Origin: Myxococcales bacterium | GTDB lineage: Bacteria > Myxococcota_A > Polyangia > Polyangiales > Polyangiaceae | Direction: 5' to 3' | Length of the DNA stretch: 48,813 nt | Assembly (NCBI GenBank): GCA_947473045.1 | Contig: CANJCO010000037.1 | Span: 1-48,813, forward strand | Shown: in pieces, positions 2 to 8,953 of the stretch | Layout of the letters: every line of letters begins with the position of its first letter | Numbering within the stretch: the stretch's first letter is position 1 | Position numbers and translations under genes: made by a program | The notes under the pieces: model-generated | The model's database searches: none | Told to the model about the DNA's origin: nothing | The model's input: only the letters and a program-made list of their open reading frames with translations

Positions 2-147
2 CAGGGTGTTGAAAAACACCCTGATAGTAATTGGCGAAGCCAATTGCGTGGGGTGGGGACCCCGAAAAACCGCGTTTTTCGGGGCGGGGAGGTGCATACC
101 TCCCCGAGATGAAAGGCTAGCAGGCCGTTCTTCAACGGCCTGTTAGC
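2..147. repeat. Array of six consecutive hairpins
   Basis: Six perfect or near-perfect inverted repeats follow one another with almost no spacer. 2-23: 9-bp stem cagggtgtt with GAAA loop. 29-45: 7-bp stem aattggc with GAA loop. 50-63: 5-bp stem ggggt with GGGG loop. 60-84: 11-bp stem ccccgaaaaac with CGC loop, sharing its first bases with the previous stem. 85-106: 9-bp stem cggggaggt with GCAT loop. 116-147: 14-bp stem gctagcaggccgtt with CTTC loop and one G-T pair. The stems differ in sequence but keep the same form, and several have GNRA-like or other stable short loops. No ORF with family features covers the region. It could be a dispersed palindromic repeat, the end of a mobile element or a structured RNA; it may extend left of the window. 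The structure is certain, its nature is not. Confidence 0.8.
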
Positions 148-1950: not shown

Positions 1951-4900
1951 ATGAAGAAGCTCTCCATCACACTTTGCACGTTCGCCATCGGCGCCGCGAC
2001 CTCGCAGGGGTGCAGCGCGCAGCGACTCCCGGGCGGTCTCCGGGCGACCCCCGAAGGGCCCGGCGCGAAGGTTCATTTCGACCTCTCGGCGAGACCGCTG
2101 CCCGAAATTCCGGTGCCCAACGACCTCGCGACCTTCGCCGATCCGACGAGCCGAACAGGCCGGCGAATCAACGCCAGCCTCGTCGCGCCCAGCGAATTCG
2201 AGCGCAACGCGCGGCAGGCGTTCTCCGAAATGGAGGGCTGGGGCACCTTCGAGCCAATCTGGGTTCAGTTCGACAAGCCGGAAGGCGGCGACTCGGCGGC
2301 GGCAGCGCTCGACCTCGACAACGTGCGCGCCAGGATGCAAGGCGACGGTTACAAGTTCGATGACGATCCGGTCTATCTGGTGAATCTCACGACCGGCGTG
2401 CCCATGGTTCTCGACATGGGAAATGGGAACTTCCCGGTCGCGGTTCGCGATCCCGACAAGTACTGGCCCAGCGACCCGCACGTCGCCTCGAACAACCTTT
2501 GGTTCGAAGACCGCGAAGAAGGCGCAGGCCTGACCCAGGCCGACTACCGACCCGAGCTCGACACCGACTTCGACGGCGTGCTCGACCACCCCAACACGCT
2601 CGGCCCTGCCGCCCGGTTTCCCGGCATCGACAACCTGATGAACTGGTACGAGCGGGAGACCGACTCGCTCATCATGCGGCCGATCTTGCCGCTCGACGAG
2701 AAAACCGAATATGCCGTCGTGCTGACCGACCGGCTCAAGGGCAGCGACGGCAACCCGATCAAATCGCCGTTTCCGGCGATTCACCACCCGTCGCAGCGCG
2801 CCGCCATTTCGCGCCTCGCCGCGGTGCTCGGAGACACGTCTGCGAAGTCGAAAGCGTACTTTGGCGACCTCGCCGGCACGGGGCTCTCGCACGTGGCGTT
2901 TTCGTGGAGCTACACCACGCAGCCCACCATCGAGGACATGATTCTTCTGCGCGACGGCCTCTACGGCAAGGGTCCGTTTGGGCGCTTCGCCTCCCAGTTT
3001 CCGGCCAGGCTGACGGCCCTGCGAGCCGCCGGCAACCTTCCTGAGAAGGACCTCCCACCCGGATGGGATCAGTCGCCTCCTGCGGGAAAATGCGCCGAGC
3101 GCGCCAAGCATCCGTACGCCGTTTACGTGAACGATCCGGACGTGTCGCTGAGCTTTCAAAAGCTCTTCAAGGACGCGTTCGGCTACGACTCGGGTGACGT
3201 CGCAGGCCTCGTTCGCGATCAGGCGTACATCGATCACCTCACAGTCGCGAAGTTCGAATCGCCCTATTTACAGGGCGATCCGAACGCGAACGATCCGGAC
3301 GCGCGCTTCCACCTCAACTTCTCGACGGGCGAAGGCACGGTGAACAGCGACACGGTGAGCATCTGGATCGTCGTGCCGAAGGAGACGGCCGCGCACAAGC
3401 AGCCCTTCCCCATCACGCTCTGGGGGCACGGCGTGGGCGGCAACATGCCCGAGGTCGAAGACTACGGCGGCGCGTTCGCCCGAGCGGGCCTCGCGAGCGT
3501 GGGCGTGAACATGCCGCAGCAGGGGCTTCCTGACGTTCCTTCACTGCGCATTCCGGCCACGGCGGAGCTCAGCGGTGACTGCCTTTTGCCCTGGGCCGAC
3601 GCGATTCTCACGACCCGTGCGAAGGACCGCAACGGCATGGGTTCGCAGCTTCCGGGCTGGTGGTGGTGGACGATGCACATCGCCAACGTGCGCGACAACG
3701 TGCGGCAGGGCACGCTCGACGAGATGCAGCTTACACGCATCTTGCGCACGTTCGACGGCAGGACGATGAGCGGCCAGGACTACAACGCCGACGGCAAAGA
3801 AGACCTCGCGGGCGATTTTGACGGCAACGGGGTGCCCGACGTCGGCGGGCCCGGCGTGGGAATCTACGCGTCGGGAGAGTCGCTTGGCGGCATCATGAGC
3901 GAAATTCAAGGAGGCATCGATCATCAGATCGACGGCACCGCTCCCATGTCCGGCGGAGGCGGCCTCGCCGACATCGGCTCCCGCAGCTACGGGGTGACCG
4001 AGTCGCTCGCGCAGCTGATGACACCGCTCATCGTGGCCATCCCCGCAACCGACCGACCGTCGAAAGTTGAAGGCGGGGTCACCGTTTTGCGCACCAACTG
4101 CACCCAGGCGCAGATGAGCGTGCGCATGCTCACCGAAGACGGCGACGACGTGCCCGAGGTCGAGCTGGCGTGCCTCAACGCCGACGAAGACGCCCTCGGC
4201 ATGACCGTGGTCGCGACCAACATGACGACGGGAGAGAGGTCCTGTACGCGCACGCTCGCGGGTGGCCGTTTCCGGCTCGCAGTCGCCGCCAGCAAAGGCG
4301 ATCGCATGGACGTGCAGCTCTACAAGGGCGCGGACATGATCGACACGTACAAGGCCTGCAACGTTCGGCCCGAGGCGATCGCCGGGCGGGACATTCGCAC
4401 GTTCGAGCAGAAGGCCTCGAACCCCATCGCTCCCCTGCCCTACGATCCCGTCAAGCGCACCGGCAGCGACAACGCGTGTGATGCCCCGGCCGGCTGCGCG
4501 CAGTGGACGAGCGATTTCTACCCCGTAGGCTCTCCGCTCGTGTCGGTGCAGACCGGTATGGGATACTCCCGCCAGACCCCCAAATTTCGCCGCTTTTGGA
4601 ATCTCGGGCAGGGAGTCGTCGATCCGGGAGATCCGATCAGCTTCGCGCCCTACTATTCGCTGCGCCCGCTCCCCGATCCCGACGGAAATCCGACGAAGCC
4701 GCGCGGACTGCTCGCGATCAACACGGTGGGAGACGCGTTCGTGCCCACCGCCACCGGCTTTGCGTTCGCGCGCGCCGCGGGAGTCATCCCGTTCTTCCCG
4801 CCCGCCGCGTATGATCTCTACCCCGAGTACCGCGACTACGTGACGCCGGCCGCGCTCTACGAGGCCTATGGCGGACGCACGCCGAACCAAGTCTATATCG

Positions 4901-5436
4901 ACGGGGCCTCACTCGAGGGCATCGCCAGACTCGAACGCTTCCCGGCCGGGCCGGGGTGCAAGTCGAACTACAACCCCGACATTGACCCGAGCCTGTGCGC
5001 CAGCTCGCCGACGCTCGACCCCCGGTCGTGTGCGCAGGCGCTCTACGACGTCGACTGGCTCAGCGAGGGCAAGCAGCCCTTCGAGGCGCAGCACCCCGCC
5101 GCCCCGATGCGCATCGCGAGGAACGCGGAGCTGCACGCCGGCGCCGCCACGCTCGAACAGGTGTGGGCGCCTCGACTCAAGGGCGTGCCGTTCAGCGCAG
5201 ACGCAACCGCCTGGGACGCGAGCGCGCGAACCTTGGGACTGGTCAATGTCTACATCATTCCCACCGGACAGCACACCTGGGATACCCCGGATGTTTGTCG
5301 CATCTGGGACCATGGAACTTATGGAGATCTCATGATCGCCCGCTTCTTCTCGAGCGGCGCCAAAGACCCGTACTACCTGTCGCATCCCTCGACGCACGAA
5401 TGCCTCGCCAACTTCTCGTGCGATTTCTTGAAGTGA
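1951..5436 (+). CDS. Large lipoprotein, alpha/beta-hydrolase-like (copy 1)
   Basis: The 1,161-residue product has a signal peptide ending in a weak lipobox (SQGC, Cys21). The N-terminal half (IPVPNDLATFADP, later DEKTEYAVVLTDRL) resembles the N-terminal domain of VolA/Pla-type bacterial lipases. The central part looks like a serine hydrolase: an oxyanion-type WGHG at 491-494 and a nucleophile elbow GESLGG with Ser644. Just before the elbow is an Asp/Gly-rich segment (DYNADGKEDLAGDFDGNG) like thrombospondin type 3 calcium sites; a second DxDxDG run lies near residue 205. A GQHTW near the C-terminus is a candidate catalytic His. The gene lies 9 nt after the barrel protein and is followed by a close paralogue. 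Likely a surface or periplasmic esterase or lipase, substrate unknown. Homology was judged by eye. Confidence 0.72.
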   Translation: MKKLSITLCTFAIGAATSQGCSAQRLPGGLRATPEGPGAKVHFDLSARPLPEIPVPNDLATFADPTSRTGRRINASLVAPSEFERNARQAFSEMEGWGTFEPIWVQFDKPEGGDSAAAALDLDNVRARMQGDGYKFDDDPVYLVNLTTGVPMVLDMGNGNFPVAVRDPDKYWPSDPHVASNNLWFEDREEGAGLTQADYRPELDTDFDGVLDHPNTLGPAARFPGIDNLMNWYERETDSLIMRPILPLDEKTEYAVVLTDRLKGSDGNPIKSPFPAIHHPSQRAAISRLAAVLGDTSAKSKAYFGDLAGTGLSHVAFSWSYTTQPTIEDMILLRDGLYGKGPFGRFASQFPARLTALRAAGNLPEKDLPPGWDQSPPAGKCAERAKHPYAVYVNDPDVSLSFQKLFKDAFGYDSGDVAGLVRDQAYIDHLTVAKFESPYLQGDPNANDPDARFHLNFSTGEGTVNSDTVSIWIVVPKETAAHKQPFPITLWGHGVGGNMPEVEDYGGAFARAGLASVGVNMPQQGLPDVPSLRIPATAELSGDCLLPWADAILTTRAKDRNGMGSQLPGWWWWTMHIANVRDNVRQGTLDEMQLTRILRTFDGRTMSGQDYNADGKEDLAGDFDGNGVPDVGGPGVGIYASGESLGGIMSEIQGGIDHQIDGTAPMSGGGGLADIGSRSYGVTESLAQLMTPLIVAIPATDRPSKVEGGVTVLRTNCTQAQMSVRMLTEDGDDVPEVELACLNADEDALGMTVVATNMTTGERSCTRTLAGGRFRLAVAASKGDRMDVQLYKGADMIDTYKACNVRPEAIAGRDIRTFEQKASNPIAPLPYDPVKRTGSDNACDAPAGCAQWTSDFYPVGSPLVSVQTGMGYSRQTPKFRRFWNLGQGVVDPGDPISFAPYYSLRPLPDPDGNPTKPRGLLAINTVGDAFVPTATGFAFARAAGVIPFFPPAAYDLYPEYRDYVTPAALYEAYGGRTPNQVYIDGASLEGIARLERFPAGPGCKSNYNPDIDPSLCASSPTLDPRSCAQALYDVDWLSEGKQPFEAQHPAAPMRIARNAELHAGAATLEQVWAPRLKGVPFSADATAWDASARTLGLVNVYIIPTGQHTWDTPDVCRIWDHGTYGDLMIARFFSSGAKDPYYLSHPSTHECLANFSCDFLK

Positions 5437-5503: not shown

Positions 5504-8500
5504 ATGGCGGCCATGCGACGCCTTTTTTCCCCCGCGACGTTGGCCCTCGCCGCGGCGGCCGCCGTGGTGCCTGCCTGCAGCTCCCAAACCGCGCCGGCAG
5601 GCCTGCGCCCGACCCCGGCCGGTGACGGGCCGACGATCGTGTTCGACGTCGCGAGGCGACCGCTACCCGAGATCCCCACCCCGAACGACATCGCGACGTT
5701 CGCCGATCCGACCAGCCGCACCGGACGCCGCATCAATGTGTCGCTCGTCGCGCCAACGCACCTGGAGCGCAGCGCGCGCGAGGGGTTTGCTGAGCTCGAA
5801 GGCTGGGGGACCTTTGCTCCCATCTCGGTGCGCTTTTCGCGCGACGCGCAGACCCCCGAGACGCAGGCCGCGATCGATCTGGAGGCGGTGCGCGCGCGCA
5901 TGCAGCACGACGATCACGACATGACCGACGATCCCGTCTACGTCGTGAACCTGACGACCGGACTGCCCGTGATGCTCGACATGGGCGACGGGAACTTTCC
6001 TGCGACCGCACGCGATCTCGACAAATACTACGAAAACGATCCACGCTCGGCCGAGCACAACATTCTGTTCGAGAGCGCGGAAGAGGGCGCCGGCCTCGGC
6101 GCTTCGGCGTACCGGCCCTCGCTCGACACCGACTTCGACGGCGTGCTCGACCATCCCAACACGCTGCCCTCGAGACGACCCGGCGCCATCGCAGGCGTCG
6201 ACGATTTGATGACGTGGTACGAGCGCGAGACCGACACGCTCGTCATGCGGCCCCTCTTGCCGATGGACGAGAAGACCGAGTACGCCGTCGTGATCACCGA
6301 CCGACTGCGGTCGGCCTCCGGATCGCCCGCGCGCTCGCCTTTTCCGTTCATTCACCATCCGGCCCAGCGCACCCCTGTCGCGCGTCTGGCGACCATCTTC
6401 GCTGACGCTTCGCGCCGCAATTACTACGGCGATGTGGCTGGATCAGGGCTCGATCACGTCGCGTTCGCGTGGTCGTTCACGACCGCCCCCGTAGCCGAGG
6501 ATCTACGCCTGCTCCGCGACGGGCTTCACGGGGTTGGCCCGTTTTCGGCGATGGCGAGCCGCTACCCGACGACGACCACGCCGTTCCGCCTGGCGGGGCT
6601 CGCACGCGACGTCGTGGACGACCCACCCAACTGGCAGGCCAACCCCAAATGCAAGGCTGCCGCCGCGCGTCCCTACGTCGTGCAGTATGACCAGCTCGCG
6701 CCGTCGCTCGAGCTGCTCGTTCAAGCCCTGTCGGGCTTTGGCGTGAGCCAGCCTGAAGTCGACGCCGTGAAGCAGTCGCTGACGTACGTCGACCACTTTG
6801 TCATTGGCACCTTCCCGGTCAGTTACCTGATGGGAGATCCCGATCACGAAGATCCGGACGCCCGCTTCGCGCTCAACTACAAGACCGGCGAAGGGCGCTT
6901 CGGCACCGACACCAGCCACTTCATTTTGGCGGTACCCAAGGCGAGTGCTGCGGCAAAACAGCCGTTCGACACCGTCGTGTGGTCGCACGGCACGGCGCAG
7001 AGCGACATCGAAATCATGATTCGCGCGGGATACTTCGCGCGCCAGGGGATGGCGACCTTCGGCTTCGACGCGCCCGGCCACGGGCTGTACATCGGCCGGG
7101 GAACCGAGACCTTGCTGCAGGGCGTGCTCGAAGGCGCGTGCCTTGTCCCCGTCGCGAAGGCGCTCACGACCGGGCGCGCGCGCGACATCAACCACGACGG
7201 CACCCCCGACCCGGGAGGCCTGTTGTGGACATCCCATATTTTTCACTCGCGCGACAACATCCGACAAACGGTGCTCGACGCCATGCAGGCCACCCGCGTG
7301 GTGCGCAGCTTCGACGGCCGAACCGGTTCGCTCGACACTGACGGTGACGGCGTGGCGAACGCAGAGGGCGATTTTGACGGCGACGGAACTCCCGACGTTG
7401 GGGGGCCAAAGGCCCGCATTTTTAGCGCGGGCGACTCGTACGGGGGCATCGTCGCGCAGATCCACAGCGCGCTCGACCCCGAGGTGCTCGCCGGCGCGTC
7501 GATCAGCGGAGCGGGCGGACTCACCGACGTCGCCGCGCGCTCTTACGGCGTCGTCGATTCGGTCGTGGAACAGCTGCTGACGCCCCTCGTCGTGGCTGTC
7601 CCCGCGAGCGCGCGTCCTCCCTCCGCCGACGGCAAGGAGACCAACTGCGCCGCAGGACAGCGCTCCGTACGAATGGTGGTCAACGACCTGATTCGTTCGG
7701 CCGAGGTCGAGCTCGCCTGTCTGCCCGAGGCCGAGCTGACCGGAAACATGACCGTCGTGCTCACGAACCTGACCACCCGCGAAGTGCGGTGCGCGCGCAC
7801 CTCGAGCGAGGGCCGGTTCCGTGTCCCCATTCCGTCGAATGTGGGAGATCGACTGGACGTGCAACTCTATGACGGGGCGGATGCAGTAACCTCCTACGAG
7901 TCGTGCGCGCTCGCCCTCGGGGCACGGGCGGGGCGATCGGTCCGCACGTTCGAGCAGCCCAGGCCAAGGCCGAGGCCCGTCGCGGACGCCGACGTCGTGT
8001 GCGAAGGCGAAGCGGGATGCGCTCAGTTCCGCGATCTGCTCATTCCGGTCGGATCGGCGCTGTTCGCGGTTCAAGAGGGACTCGGACTGCGTCGCCAGAC
8101 ACCTGAGCTTCGTAAGCTGTTCGCGCTCACCCAGTCCGCTCTCGACGGCGCCGATCCCGTGAATTTCGCGCCACTTTTCATGCTGCGCGACAGCACGGGC
8201 TACGGCGGCGCTCCCGCGGGGCCCAAGGCGTTCATGGATGCCAATACGTCGGGAGACGCGTTCGTCGTTGTGGGCGCGGGAGCCGTGTTCGCGCGCGCGA
8301 TGGGCGCCTTGCCGTTTCTGCCGCCCCGCGCCCTCACCGACATGCCCGAGTTCGCGGACTACGCAACGCCCTCCGCGCTCTACGACGCGCTCGGAGGCCG
8401 CACCCCGAACGACGTCATGATCGACAACTTCGCGATCGAAGGAAATTTCAGGCTCGCGCGCACACCGGCAGGTGCCACGTGCGCGGCGAACTATGTAGCG

Positions 8501-8953
8501 AGCGCCGCCTGCTCGGCGCCTCCGGCGACCAACCCCACGATCTGCGCCGACACGGTCGCTGATATCGACTGGCTCGCAGAAGGCAACGATCGCTACGATG
8601 CGGTCCACCCTCCGGTGCCGCTCCGGCTCGCGCGACTCGCGCGGCTGCGCGCCAGGGACGCGGCGTCGTTGTCGGCTTCGTGGAAGCCGAGACTTGCGGG
8701 CGCCCCTTTTTCGAACGACGGCGGATTCTCCGGCGCCGAAGGTCCCGTGGTCAGCCTGGTCAACGCCTACGTCAACCCGCTCGGCCAGCATGTGTGGGTC
8801 ACGTCAAACCCGTGCAAGGCCTGGGACGACGCACTGTATTACGATCACGTGGTCGGCCGGTTCTTCGCGAGCGGCGGTCAGGACGTGTATTTCCTGTCGC
8901 ATCCGAAGAGCCACGCGTGCCTCGCCACCGAGGCTTGCGATTTCTTCAAGTGA
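5504..8953 (+). CDS. Large lipoprotein, alpha/beta-hydrolase-like (copy 2)
   Basis: The 1,149-residue product is a paralogue of the preceding gene along its full length: both share NDIATFADP/NDLATFADP, TSRTGRRIN, WYERETD, DEKTEYAVV and the C-terminal GQHxW, SHP and CDFxK blocks. The signal peptide ends in a good lipobox (VPAC). SHG lies at 494-496 and the nucleophile elbow is GDSYGG with Ser645. The insert before the elbow, DTDGDGVANAEGDFDGDG, is a better calcium-site match than in copy 1. Two ATGs (5504 and 5513) are possible; the second gives a cleaner signal peptide (MRRLFSP). The motifs kept in both copies argue that both are functional; different elbow residues (ES versus DS) suggest different substrates. 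No strong Shine-Dalgarno is seen. Confidence 0.72.
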   Translation: MAAMRRLFSPATLALAAAAAVVPACSSQTAPAGLRPTPAGDGPTIVFDVARRPLPEIPTPNDIATFADPTSRTGRRINVSLVAPTHLERSAREGFAELEGWGTFAPISVRFSRDAQTPETQAAIDLEAVRARMQHDDHDMTDDPVYVVNLTTGLPVMLDMGDGNFPATARDLDKYYENDPRSAEHNILFESAEEGAGLGASAYRPSLDTDFDGVLDHPNTLPSRRPGAIAGVDDLMTWYERETDTLVMRPLLPMDEKTEYAVVITDRLRSASGSPARSPFPFIHHPAQRTPVARLATIFADASRRNYYGDVAGSGLDHVAFAWSFTTAPVAEDLRLLRDGLHGVGPFSAMASRYPTTTTPFRLAGLARDVVDDPPNWQANPKCKAAAARPYVVQYDQLAPSLELLVQALSGFGVSQPEVDAVKQSLTYVDHFVIGTFPVSYLMGDPDHEDPDARFALNYKTGEGRFGTDTSHFILAVPKASAAAKQPFDTVVWSHGTAQSDIEIMIRAGYFARQGMATFGFDAPGHGLYIGRGTETLLQGVLEGACLVPVAKALTTGRARDINHDGTPDPGGLLWTSHIFHSRDNIRQTVLDAMQATRVVRSFDGRTGSLDTDGDGVANAEGDFDGDGTPDVGGPKARIFSAGDSYGGIVAQIHSALDPEVLAGASISGAGGLTDVAARSYGVVDSVVEQLLTPLVVAVPASARPPSADGKETNCAAGQRSVRMVVNDLIRSAEVELACLPEAELTGNMTVVLTNLTTREVRCARTSSEGRFRVPIPSNVGDRLDVQLYDGADAVTSYESCALALGARAGRSVRTFEQPRPRPRPVADADVVCEGEAGCAQFRDLLIPVGSALFAVQEGLGLRRQTPELRKLFALTQSALDGADPVNFAPLFMLRDSTGYGGAPAGPKAFMDANTSGDAFVVVGAGAVFARAMGALPFLPPRALTDMPEFADYATPSALYDALGGRTPNDVMIDNFAIEGNFRLARTPAGATCAANYVASAACSAPPATNPTICADTVADIDWLAEGNDRYDAVHPPVPLRLARLARLRARDAASLSASWKPRLAGAPFSNDGGFSGAEGPVVSLVNAYVNPLGQHVWVTSNPCKAWDDALYYDHVVGRFFASGGQDVYFLSHPKSHACLATEACDFFK

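Follow-up and report, generated by a model that had tools for sequence, protein, structure and literature searches.

IS5-family insertion sequences (IS) duplicate a YTAR target (PMC10359306). The element described here resembles these IS and their MITEs in its YTAR-type 4-bp duplication, in ends held in common with a co-resident IS, in carrying no gene and in its many copies. It differs in that its ends form perfect hairpins, which the IS ends do not, and in that its body is unrelated to the IS and conserved across genera. MITEAba12 (PMC6382973) was likewise recognised from target duplications and from the ends that it has in common with a co-resident IS, but its duplications measure 9 bp, the IS is another one, and no conserved core with exchangeable ends is described for it. 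The CIR repeats of Caulobacter and Brucella (PMC2229807) are, by their description, similar small intergenic repeats with arms joined by a linker and a structure conserved across genera; CIRs have a GANTC motif, and they differ in having no known mover. REP and REPIN sequences with RAYT (PMC2817692) are also high-copy extragenic palindromes, some of them solitary, whereas the genome studied here is without a Y1 transposase and our element has a target duplication.

The window, meaning the whole stretch of 48,813 nucleotides that was analysed, is one contig (C37) of a 138-contig, 5.15-Mb Polyangiaceae genome with a completeness of 99.98% (labelled G000). It starts at the contig end, which truncates the left flank of the element copy. 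Of the 276 contig ends in the assembly, about one in four falls inside an element copy, and the element is a main cause of its fragmentation.

Hairpins and parts of the element

The original prediction placed six different hairpins in a row at the start of the window. The hairpins are real, as a DNA fold of bases 1-200 reaches -67.7 kcal/mol compared with -35.1 +/- 3.1 for shuffles (z -10.5), none of 200 shuffles folding as well. Five of them coexist in the minimum-energy fold (2-23, 27-47, 60-84, 85-106 and 116-147). The remaining hairpin at 50-63 (GGGGT-GGGG-ACCCC) takes C60-C63, which also form the base of the 60-84 hairpin; since both need these bases the two are mutually exclusive, and 50-63 represents only an alternative to 60-84. 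The scheme common to the first and last hairpins (CAGG..GTT/AAC..CCTG) is confirmed. The matched difference between these two says little alone because both are the ends of one transposon. An array starting upstream of the window, as had been suggested, is contradicted by other copies, in which the left 4-bp target duplication ends at the position of base 1. A G-quadruplex was considered given that 44 of the 63 distinct cores have GGGGNGGGG..GGGGNGGGG, but was rejected as ViennaRNA retains the hairpins when quadruplexes are allowed. The parts of the window's copy are as follows.

1, + strand: last base of the left target duplication, the remainder lost at the contig end; YTAG here in other copies
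2-142, + strand (that of the G-rich core): 141-bp non-autonomous element, a probable MITE; 50 of 53 measured own-genome copies are exactly 141 bp
2-23, + strand: left terminal hairpin CAGGGTGTT-GAAA-AACACCCTG; it opens with the 13 bases found at the left end of the IS5-family IS
27-47, + strand: hairpin 2, loop GAA; first part of the core
46-63, + strand: GCGTGGGGTGGGGACCCC, the most conserved core sequence; the alternative hairpin 50-63 competes with 60-84
60-84, + strand: hairpin 3, 11 pairs, loop CGC; upper stem with matched changes between genera
85-106, + strand: hairpin 4, 9 pairs, loop GCAT; matched changes between genera
107-112, + strand: AGATGA, conserved tail of the core; ATGA ends 38 of 63 distinct cores
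116-147, + strand: right terminal hairpin, 14 pairs; 121-142 is the element end, and the outer pairs take in CTAG at 117-120 and the TTAG duplication
143-146, + strand: right target duplication TTAG; tetramers identical on both sides in 13 of 19 two-flank copies

Copies, target duplications and mobility

A dispersed palindromic element or mobile element was among the possibilities first raised, and this is borne out by many near-identical copies, by target duplications and by a co-resident IS with matching ends. Blast with bases 1-160 finds 40 places in the own genome at 98-100% identity and two weaker ones. The left-end 15-mer has 82 exact matches in the 5.15 Mb, at least 60 of which sit at contig ends; because neighbouring contigs may each carry the whole repeat, the physical copies are fewer than 82 and perhaps number about 45. 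The flanks are mostly CTAG or TTAG. The proposed check for target duplications around the copies reveals a 4-bp YTAR type, as in the 19 copies with two flanks the tetramers are identical in 13 and the trimers in 16, with the first base covarying. Duplicated tetramers include CTAG, TTAG and CTAA, and also CTGG. Orthologous empty sites were not found in six relatives, where alignments stop short of the junctions. Solitary 22-bp hairpins of the terminal type, flanked by TAG/CTA, are present in G000 and G007 and look like two short ends placed face to face with nothing between them. At three loci (L081 around 1557 on the minus strand, L093 and L096) a copy is joined via a shared CTAG/CTAA to one more terminal hairpin or to another element, as if insertions stack on the duplicated target site.

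The co-resident IS lies on contig C83, is ~1,339 bp long (TTAG-CAGGGTGTTGAAA...TCAACGTCCTG-TTAG) and encodes a 366-aa transposase with the Pfam domains DUF772 and DDE_Tnp_1. This transposase scores 273 bits for IS5_4, where the cut-off is 140, and is also above the cut-off for NF033581. The element agrees with the IS in 13 of 13 bases at the left end and in 10 of 11 at the right (TCAACGGCCTG versus TCAACGTCCTG), while its 141 bp offer at most 47 codons, into which a transposase gene would not fit. As its ends match a co-resident IS and its duplications are 4 bp long and of YTAR type, we read the element as a MITE of an IS5-type IS. Judged by its sequence it is, within G000, an IS5-family MITE and thus of an already known kind, and the C83 transposase is probably its actual mover. 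Counting against this assignment, besides the lack of orthologous empty sites, are the flanks of 3 of the 19 two-flank copies, which differ within the first three bases, the presence of one intact copy only of the IS in G000, and the ends of the IS, which are not hairpins whereas both ends of the element are. The known end of a characterised IS, named in the original prediction as a finding that would speak against it, describes the IS5-type ends and not the body, which is no part of the IS. In a different genome, at about 2314-2631 of L065 (G011:C102:15014-15335), a remnant of the same IS5 transposase with 52 aa matched at 71% identity adjoins a solitary 22-bp hairpin.

The solitary 22-bp hairpins, and the TAG-containing tetranucleotide that precedes the hairpin ends, are also features expected of REP/REPIN-like palindromes or of an IS200/IS605 derivative, for which a Y1 (HUH) transposase recognises single-stranded hairpins. 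Here, however, the two flanks covary as in a target duplication, a feature that HUH elements are not known to create, and a Y1 transposase (PF01797) is absent from the 99.98% complete genome while control genomes are positive. Both observations contradict a Y1/HUH origin unless the gene for the enzyme falls in a gap of the assembly, and we regard it as highly improbable. We instead consider it likely that the element is a MITE mobilised in trans by an IS5-family transposase and that its body is a conserved structured cassette with exchangeable ends. In such a model an IS5-family transposase encoded in the same genome would act in trans on the element ends. The structured cassette (hairpins 2 to 4, GCGTGGGGTGGGGaCCCC and the GATGA tail) is inherited or exchanged among Polyangiaceae and, as the comparison of genera shows, combined with different transposon ends in different genera. 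Less certainly, the cassette may fold in the 3' UTR and insulate convergent genes, so that insertions at the 3' ends of genes become tolerable; this would account for its survival with new ends.

Core conservation and matched stem changes

The core spans about 23-112, or ~90 bp. The covariance-model search that had been proposed, here with a model of the core (R1) and at most 39 candidates scored per genome, found the core in 27 of 108 Polyangiaceae genomes and 15 of 48 genera. It also occurs in one genome from another family of the same order. The order of hairpin 2, GCGTGGGGTGGGGaCCCC, hairpin 3, hairpin 4 and GATGA is kept, and the terminal hairpins differ between genera though the core recurs. 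The ends are CAGG..CCTG with YTAG in the own genome, G001, G005 and G077; CTRRATSRGCGAGC..GGTCATTTAG in the Labilithrix group; CTAG-AGCGACAAACGG..CGGCGTT-CTAG in G023/G103; and TGA-AGGTCTGTCAAG..GACAGCTCT-TGA in G022/G068. No IS5-type transposase above the family cut-off was found in the other core-bearing genomes searched (G022, Labilithrix and G023); as the core alone relates their copies to ours, with no cognate IS5 match, they are not filed as IS5 MITEs. Matches to an 18-mer in Streptomyces, Gemmatimonadetes and others come without the remaining core and look like chance. MITE bodies are usually viewed as decayed IS remnants. In this element conservation is higher in the body than at the ends, and the body is common to many genera and has matched stem changes, which makes the core testable as a functional part.

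Changes on both sides occur in 18 of the 23 modelled pairs. All five covariation measures surpass all 500 shuffles and slid controls collapse, values that are to be read in light of an alignment fitted to the model, related sequences and a weak model helix 1. On this comparative evidence the core covaries beyond chance, as a functional structured RNA should, but the cause may also lie at the DNA level. Stems 3 and 4 over 105 distinct copies hold 1867 Watson-Crick, 27 G-U and 17 A-C pairs. With so few G-U pairs, and with no clear asymmetry between G-U and A-C, the matched changes fall short of proving an RNA; a low G-U share of this kind would also follow from the perfecting of palindromes at the DNA level. 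The selection on structure proposed in the original prediction is therefore plausible for the core, no shuffle scoring as high, but unproven given the rarity of G-U. Rfam 15 at gathering and lax thresholds gave no match to the element, and no intrinsic terminator was found within it.

Position relative to genes

Gene positions derive from a codon-usage script rather than curated annotation. In G022, the TGA stop of a co-oriented upstream gene lies exactly at the left boundary in 31 of 34 distinct copies, compared with 22% (60/270) of extragenic TGA sites in the same loci that lie at stops (p = 1.6e-17). Copies between convergent genes make up 19 of the 34 (a neighbour-derived null, biased by design, was excluded), and of the tandem copies 13 are oriented with transcription and two opposite to it. 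In the Labilithrix group roughly half the copies have either the TAG, TAA or TGA of the left gene as their left boundary or the TTA, CTA or TCA of an opposite-strand gene as their right one. In the own genome a stop codon coincides with 19 of 68 flanks, and in the window 7 of 16 comparable YTAR sites outside genes lie at stop codons. Special stop-codon targeting in the own genome was rejected, there being no excess over the YTAR null; a YTAR preference combined with gene avoidance suffices. Integron attC sites, likewise located directly behind stop codons, were rejected on inspection, since the copies are spread across numerous contigs instead of being grouped in cassette arrays. The exact G022 junction (31/34) offers a direct test of a link between gene ends and either the insertion of the element or its later persistence.

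The core may be chiefly a host-useful 3'-UTR or terminator-like RNA, spread by mobility, with copies kept as they help neighbouring genes. Conservation of the core across genera while the ends change, the matched stem changes and, in G022, the copies at a stop codon in gene sense (31/34) or between convergent genes (19/34) are consistent with such a role. The absence of an intrinsic terminator, the few G-U pairs with their unclear G-U/A-C asymmetry, the lack of a stop-codon excess over the YTAR null in the own genome and the near-identity of copies, which points to recent spread and not long retention, argue against it, and we consider it possible but on balance unlikely. Alternatively, the matched stem changes may result from mutation, with template switching turning imperfect palindromes into perfect ones and the core being no more than the body of an old transposon. 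The 1867 Watson-Crick pairs in stems 3 and 4 against only 27 G-U and 17 A-C fit this explanation; the near invariance of GCGTGGGGTGGGGaCCCC and of the lower stems across genera is not accounted for by palindrome correction, and here too we lean against, while granting it an appreciable chance. The suggestion that the ~90 bp structured cassette is a modular hitch-hiker, repeatedly taking on ends from different transposons and, in certain lineages, inserted in stop-codon register, is rather doubtful; if true, it would represent a mobile 3'-UTR or insulator module in Polyangiaceae.

The literature searched on MITEs, whether located at stop codons or from Polyangiaceae, gave no description of the element, and the combination of a shared core with exchangeable ends and the stop-codon register of G022 is unusual and without description in the literature searched. 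A single copy in another genus (G006:C52:1-119; L050/L079) is 98% identical to that of the window, which suggests recent horizontal transfer or the contamination of one MAG. Further along the window, two adjoining large open reading frames (1951-5436 and 5504-8953; 1161 and 1149 aa) are alike by eye and probably represent a tandem duplication of a lipoprotein-like gene.
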